Source: an uncultured Clostridia bacterium (GTDB lineage: Bacteria; Bacillota; Clostridia; Christensenellales; CAG-917). Taken from it: 39,162 nt of DNA. The translations under genes were made by a program, and so were the position numbers. Below the pieces are notes generated by a model. That model ran no database searches, had not been told where the DNA came from, and saw only the letters and a program-made list of their open reading frames with translations. The stretch is taken from positions 1-39,162 of the forward strand of contig CANQMD010000005.1 in assembly GCA_947624885.1 (NCBI GenBank). The letters run 5' to 3'. Positions 21,338 through 25,715 of this stretch are shown here, piece after piece (the first letter of the stretch is position 1; every line of letters starts with the position of its first letter).

Positions 21338-21392
21338 TTGTAAGAAATTTGTAACAATTTTGTCATGCCGTTGCAAGAAAGTTGTGAGATGA
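21338..21392 (+). promoter_or_regulatory. Five exact 11-bp-phased TTGT/TTGC direct repeats overlapping a promoter (TTGCAA 21371-21376, 17 bp, GATATT 21394-21399)
   Basis: TTGTAAGAAAT/TTGTAACAATT/TTGTCATGCCG/TTGCAAGAAAG/TTGTGAGATGA beginning at 21338, 21349, 21360, 21371, 21382. Confidence 0.8.
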
Positions 21393-21423
21393 TGATATTG
21401 TAAAAATTCCGACGAGGTTGTTT

Positions 21424-22998
21424 ATGAAAGACAATGTTGTTGTTGCAATGACGGGCGCAAGCGGCAATATGGGCATGGAAACGCTTGCCCAATTGCTCGA
21501 ACTTGACCGCGTAAAAAAGGTCAAAGCCCTGCTCCTCAACGAGCGCCGCGAAAGGAAATACGCGCGTTCAATACGCAAAAAATACGGGGACCGAGTCGAG
21601 GTCATATTCGGCAACGTCGCCGACATGGGAAAGTGTCGCCAGCTTGTCAAGGACGCGGACTACGTGTTGCATCTTGCCGCAGTCATTCCGCCTCTTGCCG
21701 ACCATCATCCCAAGGAAACCGACGATTGCAATCGCCTCGGCACGATAAATCTTGTCAACGCCGTGCAGGAGATTCAGACGGATCAACCAAAATTTGTGCA
21801 CATCTCCACCGTCGCGATCTACGGCAACCGCAACTACAAGCACCCGTGGGGGCGCATAGGCGATCCGCTCATCTCAAGCGTGTACGACGAGTATTCCGCC
21901 AGCAAGATCAAGGGCGAAAGATATGTGCTTGACAGCGATCTTGCCTGCTGGGTAGTGCTCAGGCAGACGGGCATGCTGCACAACCGCATGCTCACCAACA
22001 ACATGAAGGACGGGTTGATGTTTCACACCTGTTTCAACGCGCCCATAGAGTGGGTGACCGCGCGCGACAGCGGCAGGCTGATGAAAAATCTTGTGGAAAA
22101 GGACGCAAGCGGACAGCTGGACGAGCAGTTTTGGAAAAAGTGTTACAACATAGGCGGCGGGGCTCGCAACAGAGTGACGGGCTACGACACTTTCGATCAA
22201 GGATTCAAGATCATCGGCGGATCCACCGAAAAATTTATGAAGCCGCAATGGAATTCCCTGCGCAACTTCCACTGCATGTGGTTTGAAGACAGCGGCGTTT
22301 TGAACGACTATCTGGACTTCCAAAGGGAGGATATCCGCGATTATTGGAACGAGATCCTCAAAAAACACAGCTATTATCGCATCGCAAAACTCTTCCCTGC
22401 CGGACTGATCCGAAAACTTGCGATCGAGCGTCTGCTCAAGGACGAAAACGCTCCTCGCAAATGGATCAACAGCGACGACGCAGGCAAAGTACGCGCATTT
22501 TTCGGCAGCCCGGAAAACGTCGTCAACATGCCTGAGGATTGGAGCAAATTCCCCGTGCTCGCCAAAGGACAGCTTGCGGACGGCAGCATTGACTACGACG
22601 ATATGCGCAATCCCGACCACGTCGTTCAAAACGGCTACCGCCTCAGCCACGGCTACGACGAAACAAAGCCCGACAGCGAGTTGGACATCGATGACATGCG
22701 CGACGCGGCGGCGTTCAGAGGCGGCAGATGCGTGTCCGAAAGCATGGTCAAGGGCGACCTTTACACCAAACTCGAATGGGAATGCCACGACGGACATCGC
22801 TTTTTCGCCTCGCCGTACACGGTGCTCAAGGCGGGACATTGGTGCCCGCAGTGCTGTCAACCTCAGCCGTGGGACTACGACAGACTTTCCAAATTTATGC
22901 CATTCTATGCGCAAGTGTGGTACGACACACACGCCAAGGGCGAAAACCGCACCTATTGGTTTGACAGAGAGCATCACGCTCGCTTCACAAAATTCTGA
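21424..22998 (+). CDS. NAD-dependent epimerase/dehydratase family protein with C-terminal zinc-ribbon-like domain
   Basis: 'VAMTGASGNMGMETLAQLL', 'DYVLHLAAVIPP', 'VHISTVAIYGNR', 'DEYSASKIKGERYVLDSDL'; C-terminal 'LEWECHDGHRFFASPYTVLKAGHWCPQCC'. Confidence 0.85.
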   Translation: MKDNVVVAMTGASGNMGMETLAQLLELDRVKKVKALLLNERRERKYARSIRKKYGDRVEVIFGNVADMGKCRQLVKDADYVLHLAAVIPPLADHHPKETDDCNRLGTINLVNAVQEIQTDQPKFVHISTVAIYGNRNYKHPWGRIGDPLISSVYDEYSASKIKGERYVLDSDLACWVVLRQTGMLHNRMLTNNMKDGLMFHTCFNAPIEWVTARDSGRLMKNLVEKDASGQLDEQFWKKCYNIGGGARNRVTGYDTFDQGFKIIGGSTEKFMKPQWNSLRNFHCMWFEDSGVLNDYLDFQREDIRDYWNEILKKHSYYRIAKLFPAGLIRKLAIERLLKDENAPRKWINSDDAGKVRAFFGSPENVVNMPEDWSKFPVLAKGQLADGSIDYDDMRNPDHVVQNGYRLSHGYDETKPDSELDIDDMRDAAAFRGGRCVSESMVKGDLYTKLEWECHDGHRFFASPYTVLKAGHWCPQCCQPQPWDYDRLSKFMPFYAQVWYDTHAKGENRTYWFDREHHARFTKF

Positions 22999-23010
22999 GG
23001 TCCGACAATT

Positions 23011-23910
23011 ATGAAAAACGCTGTAATTTACGTATTTTCAGGCACCGGCAACACAAAAAAGATTTGCGACCTTTATAAAGCCACGTTCGAATTGAACGGC
23101 GTTGCCACCACGCTGTACGAAGTGCGCGGAGATCTTGACGGGATCCCATCGCCGCAAGCCTACGATCTTGTGGGATTTGCCTACCCCATCCACGGCTTCA
23201 ACGCGCCGCACATCATGCTCAGCCTTGCAAAAGCGCTGCCAAAGTTGCCAAAGGGCGAGCATAAACAATACTTTGTGCTGAAAAGTTCGGGCGAGCCGCT
23301 CAAAACAAACAACATCTCCTCTTACAAACTTCGCTCCATACTCAAGCGCAAAGGCTACGCGCAATTTGCGGAGTATCACTACGTCATGCCCTACAACATG
23401 ATCTTCCGCCACACCGACGAGTTCGCCGCAAAAATGTGGGATACGGCAAAGGCGCTTGCGCCCATCGAGGCGCGCGAGGTGCTGGCTATGACCCCTCATA
23501 TGCTCAAGGGCGTGCCTTTTGGGCATTTCATCGCCTGGGTGCTGAGGATAGAGCAGCCCGCAATGCGCGTCAACGGCAGGATGTTCAAAGTGAACGCCAA
23601 AAAGTGCGTGGGCTGCAACCGTTGCGTCAAGGCGTGCCCTATGGGCAACATAACGCGCGGCAAGGACGGCAAATTTCACTTTGGCGGCGATTGCGTGATG
23701 TGCGCCCGCTGCTCGTTCAACTGCCCAAGCGACGCTTTCAACATCGCGATGCTCAACGGCTGGCGAGTCAACGGCAAATACGACTTTGAATATAGCGGCG
23801 AAAACCAGCCTAACAAGCACTCCCGCTACTGCAAAAAGGCGTATGAGAGATATTTTGCCGAGGCGACGCAAAAAATCAATTGTGCAAATCAAAATAATGA
23901 TGTAAAATAA
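23011..23910 (+). CDS. EFR1 family flavodoxin/ferredoxin fusion protein
   Basis: 'IYVFSGTGNTKKICDLY' flavodoxin P-loop; two clusters 'CVGCNRCVKACP' and 'CVMCARCSFNCP'. Confidence 0.9.
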   Translation: MKNAVIYVFSGTGNTKKICDLYKATFELNGVATTLYEVRGDLDGIPSPQAYDLVGFAYPIHGFNAPHIMLSLAKALPKLPKGEHKQYFVLKSSGEPLKTNNISSYKLRSILKRKGYAQFAEYHYVMPYNMIFRHTDEFAAKMWDTAKALAPIEAREVLAMTPHMLKGVPFGHFIAWVLRIEQPAMRVNGRMFKVNAKKCVGCNRCVKACPMGNITRGKDGKFHFGGDCVMCARCSFNCPSDAFNIAMLNGWRVNGKYDFEYSGENQPNKHSRYCKKAYERYFAEATQKINCANQNNDVK

Positions 23911-23936: not shown

Positions 23937-24617
23937 ATGAGAAAAATTTTGATCGCAGAGGACAATATCGAAATCTCCGACATGATGCGCAACTACCTGT
24001 TCAAAGCCGGCGATATGACGGTGTATCAGGCGTTCGACGGCGAGCAAGCGCTGAGCATCGCGGCGCAAGTGGAGCCCGACTTGGTGTTGCTTGACATCAT
24101 GATGCCCATTGTGGACGGCTACGAAGTGTGCCGCCGCCTGCGCGATGGCAACAACATCCCCATCATAGTGGTTTCCGCAAAAGTCGCCGAGGAGGACAAG
24201 GAGCGCATGTTTGCGCTTGGCGCGGACGACTACATGACCAAGCCCTTCTCCTTCAAGGAGATGGTGATGCGGGTGCACGCCCAACTCAGGCGCTACTACG
24301 ATTTCAACTCCCAACAGCGCGGCAACGACCGCAGATACGGCAGGCTGACCATATCCTCCTCCCGTTTTGAGGCGAAGGTGGACGGCGAGGACATTTCTCT
24401 CACGGCAAAGGAGTTCAAAATTTTGGACTACCTCACCCTCAACGCAAATCAGATCATTCCAAAGCAGAAACTCATTGACGAGGTGTGGGGCATCGACGAA
24501 TATATCGACGAAAACACCGTCGCCGTCACCATCGCGCGGCTGAGGGACAAACTTGCCAAGGTCGACGTGCACAACGTCGCCACGGTATGGGGCCTCGGCT
24601 ACAAGTGGCAGGACTGA
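23937..24617 (+). CDS. OmpR/PhoB-family response regulator
   Basis: 'KILIAEDNIEISDMMRNYL', 'PDLVLLDIMMPIVDGYEVCRRLR', 'GADDYMTKPFSFKEMVMRVHAQLRR', winged helix 'LTAKEFKILDYLTLNANQIIPKQKLIDEVWG...VAVTIARLRDKL'. Confidence 0.95.
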   Translation: MRKILIAEDNIEISDMMRNYLFKAGDMTVYQAFDGEQALSIAAQVEPDLVLLDIMMPIVDGYEVCRRLRDGNNIPIIVVSAKVAEEDKERMFALGADDYMTKPFSFKEMVMRVHAQLRRYYDFNSQQRGNDRRYGRLTISSSRFEAKVDGEDISLTAKEFKILDYLTLNANQIIPKQKLIDEVWGIDEYIDENTVAVTIARLRDKLAKVDVHNVATVWGLGYKWQD

Positions 24618-24635: not shown

Positions 24636-25715
24636 ATGTTTAAATCGAAATTGGCAAAAATCGAATCCGAACTCATGCGTTTGCAGGAGGGCAACCTGCT
24701 TGAGCCTGTCAAGATTGAAGGCGTGGGAGTATACCACGCCATAATGAAGAGGCTTGACACTCTGCGGCTTACGCTTTTGAAACTGCAGGACGCACAAGTT
24801 GACGTTGCAAACCGCACCAACACGGCGATCGCGTCCGTCGCGCACGACATGAAAACGCCTCTCGCGGTCATTGCGGGCTATGCGGAGAGTCTGAGCGACG
24901 GCATGGACGACAAAAACTACGCCGAACTCATTCTTCAAAAGACAGATCAAATGAACGAGATGGTGCTGTCCCTCGTCGAGGAATCGCACGAGGAACTTGA
25001 AAAAAGCAAAAAGGTCAAGCATATCGTCAACGCCCGCGAGTACTTCACCGAGGCTGTGGATCGCATGCGCCCTCTTGCGGAGGCAAAAGGCATCACGATC
25101 AAGCACAAAAAAGTGCCGAGCGTGCCCATAAGGCTGGACGCATATCAATTTGGCAGAGTGGTGCAAAACCTCATATCCAACGCCGTGAAATATTCCCCGT
25201 CCGGGACATCCGTCAAAATTTCATACACGCTTTTCGCCAAAAAACTTTACATCAAAGTCAAGGACATGGGTCAAGGCATCTCAAAGGCGAGCCTGCCCTA
25301 CATTTTCGACCAATTTTACACCGAGGACAAAACGCGATCCAACTCTCAAAACAACGGGCTTGGGCTTTACATCACCAAGGAGATCGTGCGCGAACACGGC
25401 GGCACGATAAGCGTCGCAAGCAAAAAAGGCAAAGGCAGCACGTTCACCGTCGCGCTTCCCGTCGAGCCTCCTCTTGCCGAAAAGTTGACCCTAACGGCGC
25501 GTTTTGACAAACTTCCTCTTTGGGGCAAGATCTTAATAGAGTTGTGCTTCGGCTGGTTGCTTGCGTCGGTGTATCGCATCACCCGCTTTTTTGAAACGCG
25601 CAACGCTTCGACCCTTCTTTTCGGAGTCCTGTGTCTTGCGCTGTTCCCATTCATGTGGTTTATCGACTTTTTGAGCATCTGCGTCTACGGCAAGATCACT
25701 TTCCTTGCGGATTGA
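24636..25715 (+). CDS. Sensor histidine kinase with C-terminal transmembrane region
   Basis: 'ASVAHDMKTPLAVIAGYAESL' H-box; 'VVQNLISNAVKYSP' N-box; 'KDMGQGIS', 'NNGLGLYITKEIVREHGG', 'GKGSTFTVALP'; hydrophobic helices only after the catalytic domain. Confidence 0.93.
   Translation: MFKSKLAKIESELMRLQEGNLLEPVKIEGVGVYHAIMKRLDTLRLTLLKLQDAQVDVANRTNTAIASVAHDMKTPLAVIAGYAESLSDGMDDKNYAELILQKTDQMNEMVLSLVEESHEELEKSKKVKHIVNAREYFTEAVDRMRPLAEAKGITIKHKKVPSVPIRLDAYQFGRVVQNLISNAVKYSPSGTSVKISYTLFAKKLYIKVKDMGQGISKASLPYIFDQFYTEDKTRSNSQNNGLGLYITKEIVREHGGTISVASKKGKGSTFTVALPVEPPLAEKLTLTARFDKLPLWGKILIELCFGWLLASVYRITRFFETRNASTLLFGVLCLALFPFMWFIDFLSICVYGKITFLAD

Follow-up and report, generated by a model that had tools for sequence, protein, structure and literature searches.

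The Pho boxes of the phosphate-starvation regulator PhoB/PhoP are composed of 11-bp direct-repeat units, seven conserved positions and four others, that are bound head to tail (PMC4415409, PMC3348028), and in the PhoB promoters of E. coli the direct repeats are placed 10 bp upstream of the -10 (PMC1906773). The sites of WalR/VicR follow the pattern TGTWAH-N5-TGTWAH, and the wal operons have been reported as not autoregulated (PMC4168254, PMC9210968). CiaR recognizes (N/T)TTAAG-N5-TTTAAG at promoters that are mostly activated and carry a conserved -10, and it also feeds back on the operon that encodes it (PMC3091779, PMC8317062). An autoregulatory direct-repeat operator is a known kind of element; the regulator and the motif considered here appear to be undescribed.

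The window, which is the whole 39,162-bp stretch of DNA that was analysed, contains on its forward strand five 11-mers (TTGTAAGAAAT, TTGTAACAATT, TTGTCATGCCG, TTGCAAGAAAG and TTGTGAGATGA) that start at 21338, 21349, 21360, 21371 and 21382 with a period of exactly 11 bp and open with the words TTGT/TTGT/TTGT/TTGC/TTGT. The coordinates and the perfect phasing of these TTGY repeats are as the first-pass annotation had given them, and no other run of at least four TTGY words at 11-bp spacing occurs on either strand of the window. When the 245-bp intergenic stretch, with its 13 TTGs, was simulated by a first-order Markov model, a five-run never arose in 20,000 trials and a four-run arose in 2 of 20,000. 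Allowing a free choice of 3-mer and of a fixed spacing between 7 and 22 bp gave five copies in 3 of 2,000 simulations, which makes the raw periodicity, with word and spacing chosen freely, about a 1-in-700 event, and the case therefore rests on conservation.

The array precedes four genes that lie on its own strand with intergenic gaps of 12, 26 and 18 bp, between an aspartate kinase gene upstream and a convergent gene downstream. The first gene (21424–22998) encodes a 524-aa SDR-type NAD-dependent epimerase/dehydratase-like protein (Pfam Epimerase, 3.3e-14), and the second (23011–23910) encodes a ferredoxin-like protein of the EFR1 family (NCBIfam NF038196, 100.9 bits against a cut-off of 75), a family name of which no mention was found in the literature searched. 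The third (23937–24617) encodes an OmpR/PhoB-family response regulator that is proposed to bind the array; its receiver (Response_reg) and winged-helix (Trans_reg_C) domains both score above the Pfam cut-offs. The fourth (24636–25715) encodes a histidine kinase, assigned from its HisKA and HATPase_c domains.

The HisKA/HATPase core of the kinase lies near the N terminus with no membrane segment before it, and by hydropathy it is the C terminus that is hydrophobic, with a strong stretch at about residues 323–352 and a weaker one ahead of it; this region is kept in most orthologs, and the topology is unusual. In the epimerase-like protein, Pfam covers the N-terminal SDR part only, and the long C-terminal part carries a C-x2-GH ... 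C-x2-C pattern (WECHDGHRF...WCPQC) reminiscent of a zinc ribbon. Relatives of this epimerase that lack the two-component genes are found in Bacteroidales and spirochaetes.

Relatives of the epimerase at 52 public genome loci formed the comparison set, and at 21 of them (L001-L014, L019-L023, L027 and L051) the regulator lies next to or near the epimerase gene. All 21, in which response regulator and kinase are both present, carry the array upstream of the epimerase, either as TGTAAG-N5-TGTAAG itself or in a form that departs from it at one or two bases, no more than about 130 bp before the gene, whereas an array model built from these 21 promoters found no array in any of the 31 epimerase loci without the regulator (best E 0.71 over 365 kb). 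The first-pass annotation had proposed that the promoter of an operon encoding an OmpR/PhoB-class regulator carries a direct-repeat site of that class, and had named a lack of conservation before orthologous operons as grounds for rejecting this; these counts support the proposal. Within whole genomes of relatives, the regulator is present in 22 of 60, always alongside the epimerase, which is found in 35 of 60; further regulator-bearing relatives with the array that emerged from these genomes are G022, G039 and, with a weak array, G020. The exact double box lies beside the epimerase in none of the 13 genomes that have this gene without the regulator. It is absent altogether from 12 of these and occurs in the other, G009, on a different contig, among unrelated genes and lacking boxes 3 and 4. 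A full-length match to the array model was likewise not found in G002, G006, G009, G021, G048 or G050, all with the epimerase and without the regulator. One genome, G026, has the regulator and lacks the exact double box, as judged by an exact-pattern search only.

On the epimerase tree the combined array/regulator label needs two changes, which we read as a single gain followed by loss of both together in the clade of L015-L018, where the contig of L015 stops soon after gene 2 and leaves the absence of the regulator there unproven. The agreement between array and regulator is complete but, given how the label clusters on the tree, it represents only about two independent evolutionary events. 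The repeats might instead be a product of chance or a structural feature of the DNA, such as phased T-runs or curvature, with no regulator devoted to them; the promoter is AT-rich (59%), and some five-fold phased 3-mer did appear in the simulations. We consider this extremely improbable, as TGTAAG is conserved base by base, and with sharp borders, among loci that encode epimerases of 51–92% identity, the flanking DNA is not conserved, and the array was lost together with the regulator.

In its own genome the array is the single site that the array model found (E 3.8e-14), the next-best match having an E of 0.92. A search of the same genome for TGTAAS-N5-TGTAAS with one mismatch allowed returned 7 matches against 19 for a reversed control, so only the match in the window is meaningful. 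Four OmpR-type regulators are encoded in this genome, and members of the family typically bind direct repeats, so that the array could be bound by another of them (the VanR-like one at C12, or the two at C1), with the two-component genes merely its target. This is very unlikely, as the VanR-like regulator occurs in G002, G006 and G009, where the epimerase is found and the array is not, and no ortholog of it exceeded the threshold in the array-bearing G003, G022, G025, G032, G035 and G039. The array-model scan found no array near the other three OmpR-type regulator genes, and the operon's own regulator tracks the array with no exception found. Its recognition-helix region, IDENTVAVT[IV].RLR[DE]KL, does not vary among the nine regulators that were inspected, which are 61–88% identical overall to that of the window, so that it stays unchanged while the site stays unchanged, and it differs in the other three regulators of the genome.

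The individual repeats were scored as mean matches to TTGTAAG, out of 7, over 20 orthologous promoters, for which the background is 2.12. Box 1 (TTGTAAG, 21338–21344) averages 6.5/7 and has a sharp conservation edge in the alignment, and box 2 (21349–21355), which is TTGTAAC in the window and TTGTAAG in most orthologs, averages 6.55/7 with its bases T, G, T, A and A invariant in 21 of 21 aligned promoters. Box 4 (TTGCAAG, 21371–21377), the promoter-proximal half-site, reaches 5.45/7. Box 3 (TTGTCAT, 21360–21366) is a degenerate half-site with a mean of 3.75/7, taking the form TGTCA or CGTCA in some clades and gone in others; the same forms are seen again in extra copies of the array before other genes. 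The fifth repeat (TTGTGAG, 21382–21388), at 2.75/7, is no conserved box, falling between box 4 and the -10 and sharing its last base with the first of the -10 hexamer. The five consecutive half-sites that had been thought unusually long are thereby reduced to three that are strongly kept and one that is weakly kept, and with boxes 1, 2 and 4 conserved in this way and box 3 only weakly the array looks like two tandem dimer sites.

The probable -10, GATGAT (21388–21393), begins 50 bp downstream of the first base of box 1 and is separated from the end of box 4 by exactly 10 bp, a distance that is fixed in nearly all orthologs. This offset gives the best mean match to TATAAT anywhere in the promoter (4.25/6 against a background of 1.98), and in the 18 promoters tabulated position 2 is always A and position 6 always T. 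No convincing TTGACA-like -35 was found 16–18 bp before the -10 in 20 promoters, the best being a 4/6 match in two of them. The promoter proposed at first, TTGCAA-17-GATATT, is numerically right, but the conserved -10 starts 6 bp earlier, and a -10 at 21394–21399 has little cross-species support. The accompanying suggestion that repeat 4 coincides with a -35 had to be abandoned, as the conserved -10 follows box 4 by 10 bp and no -35 is visible.

Set against the described systems, the array is closest in layout to the PhoB promoters, with which it shares tandem 11-bp units, a last repeat that ends 10 bp before the -10 and overlaps the -35 position, and the lack of a -35 consensus. It differs from them in its motif, TTGTAAG rather than the CTGTCAT of Pho boxes, and in its targets, which are unrelated to phosphate. 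The common 7+4 repeat format, the equal distance to the -10 and the resemblance of box 3, TTGTCAT, to CTGTCAT (PMC4415409) could be taken to mean that the array is itself a Pho box, bound by the phosphate-starvation regulator, but this is scarcely credible: PstS was not found in the genome, the regulator reaches 172.3 bits where the PhoB cut-off is 296.2, and the array is found nowhere else in the genome. Membership of the Pho regulon and orthology with PhoB were rejected on the first two of these points.

With the WalR/VicR sites, to which the first-pass annotation had likened it, the array shares the hexamer phase, the spacing and the TGTAA core; the comparison is a loose one, as position 6 of the hexamer is mostly G (20 of the 21 aligned promoters have it in box 1), which TGTWAH excludes. 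The regulator, at 183.1 bits against a YycF cut-off of 340, is not identified as WalR/YycF either, and unlike WalR/YycF it is patchy among genomes rather than universal. The CiaR sites resemble the array in their AAG-ending hexamers, N5 spacer and conserved -10, but the hexamer is TGTAAG here and TTTAAG in CiaR, two tandem dimer sites stand in place of one, and gene content and lineage are different; identity with CiaR was rejected because nearly all promoters have a G at position 2 of both box 1 and box 2. Identity with VanR was also rejected, at 188.9 bits against 460 (VanR-F/M) and 182.3 against 350. As the motif fails the WalR (TGTWAH), CiaR (TTTAAG) and Pho-regulon comparisons, we file it at the level of the OmpR/PhoB family only, where its head-to-tail half-sites at 11-bp spacing are those of a direct-repeat operator.

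An autoregulatory operator of the OmpR/PhoB class is strongly supported by these comparisons of sequence, and the operator is probably activating and PhoB-like in layout. We think it very likely that the operon's own OmpR/PhoB-family regulator uses the array as its operator, bound there as a tandem pair of dimers and acting in positive feedback. In the mechanism that we propose, the phosphorylated regulator would bind boxes 1+2 and boxes 3+4 as one head-to-tail dimer each, boxes 1+2 being the strong site and boxes 3+4 a weaker, promoter-proximal site that would be filled cooperatively. The dimer on boxes 3+4, which we only infer because box 3 is degenerate, would occupy the -35 position, end 10 bp from the -10 and recruit RNA polymerase as PhoB does, the outcome being positive feedback on the epimerase-EFR1-regulator-kinase operon. 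Binding, the pairing into dimers, activation rather than repression, the need for phosphorylation and a role at the envelope are all things that we infer. The regulator gene is the third of the operon and might additionally be transcribed from an internal promoter not seen here.

The same site might serve the same regulator mainly for repression, in that a dimer bound to boxes 3 and 4, which span the region of RNA polymerase -35 contact, would block the promoter and give negative feedback; direct-repeat regulators are able to repress from such positions (PMC4168254). We regard this as unlikely, though the least unlikely of the alternatives, as the lack of a good -35 in 20 promoters and the fixed spacing from box 4 to the -10 form the layout of a PhoB activator.

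More copies of the array are found in relatives. Within the same genus, G001, G004 and G005 have additional full four-box arrays ahead of a CrtO-like acyltransferase gene, behind which G004 and G005 also have a family-4 glycosyltransferase gene, and in G032, of the same family (L120:4030-10001), an array precedes an ABC-transporter operon and then a large Big_2-domain protein. The same regulator would in some relatives also drive the CrtO-like acyltransferase/glycosyltransferase operon, and these targets suggest, as a guess, a cell-envelope (glycolipid) response. In G014 and G016 the CrtO-like gene is present and no array precedes it, so that the wider target set is not stable. Whether TTGTAAG-N4 repeats and an IDENTVAVT-type recognition helix make up a previously undescribed pair of site and regulator in an uncultured Clostridia lineage, which mostly serves its own operon only, with the SDR enzyme and the EFR1-family ferredoxin, and has gained glycolipid-type and ABC-transporter operons in some species, we judge to be evenly balanced; if true, it would show on a small scale how a two-component regulon with almost a single target acquires others.

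The mechanism itself is ordinary. A repeat picked out by eye has become an operator that can be tested, its motif and -10 being defined and a regulator assigned to it, in a lineage of which almost everything known comes from metagenomes. As genomes carry the site almost only once and it was lost together with the regulator, it offers a clean natural case in which to match a recognition helix with its half-site, and the array family also allows the gain of regulon targets to be watched.

In relatives, exact copies of TGTAAG-N5-TGTAAG at L061, L065 and L070 have no recognisable boxes 3 or 4 and look like chance, and those at L060, L077 and L079 adjoin other two-component or ABC genes without the layout of box 4 and -10. 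At L076 (G034) an exact double box and a box-4-like word stand before a DNA-gyrase-B-like gene. The arrays before the CrtO-like gene are paired at two loci, L117:4905-5520 and L118:4660-5290, where two arrays lie about 560 bp apart and enclose two short reading frames, one of about 34 aa and then a membrane-like one of about 56 aa, and the first array of L118 carries an extra, partly duplicated box. The CrtO-like gene of G004 (L117:5575-6200) appears interrupted, its matches falling in two frames with stop codons, and is intact in G001 and G005.
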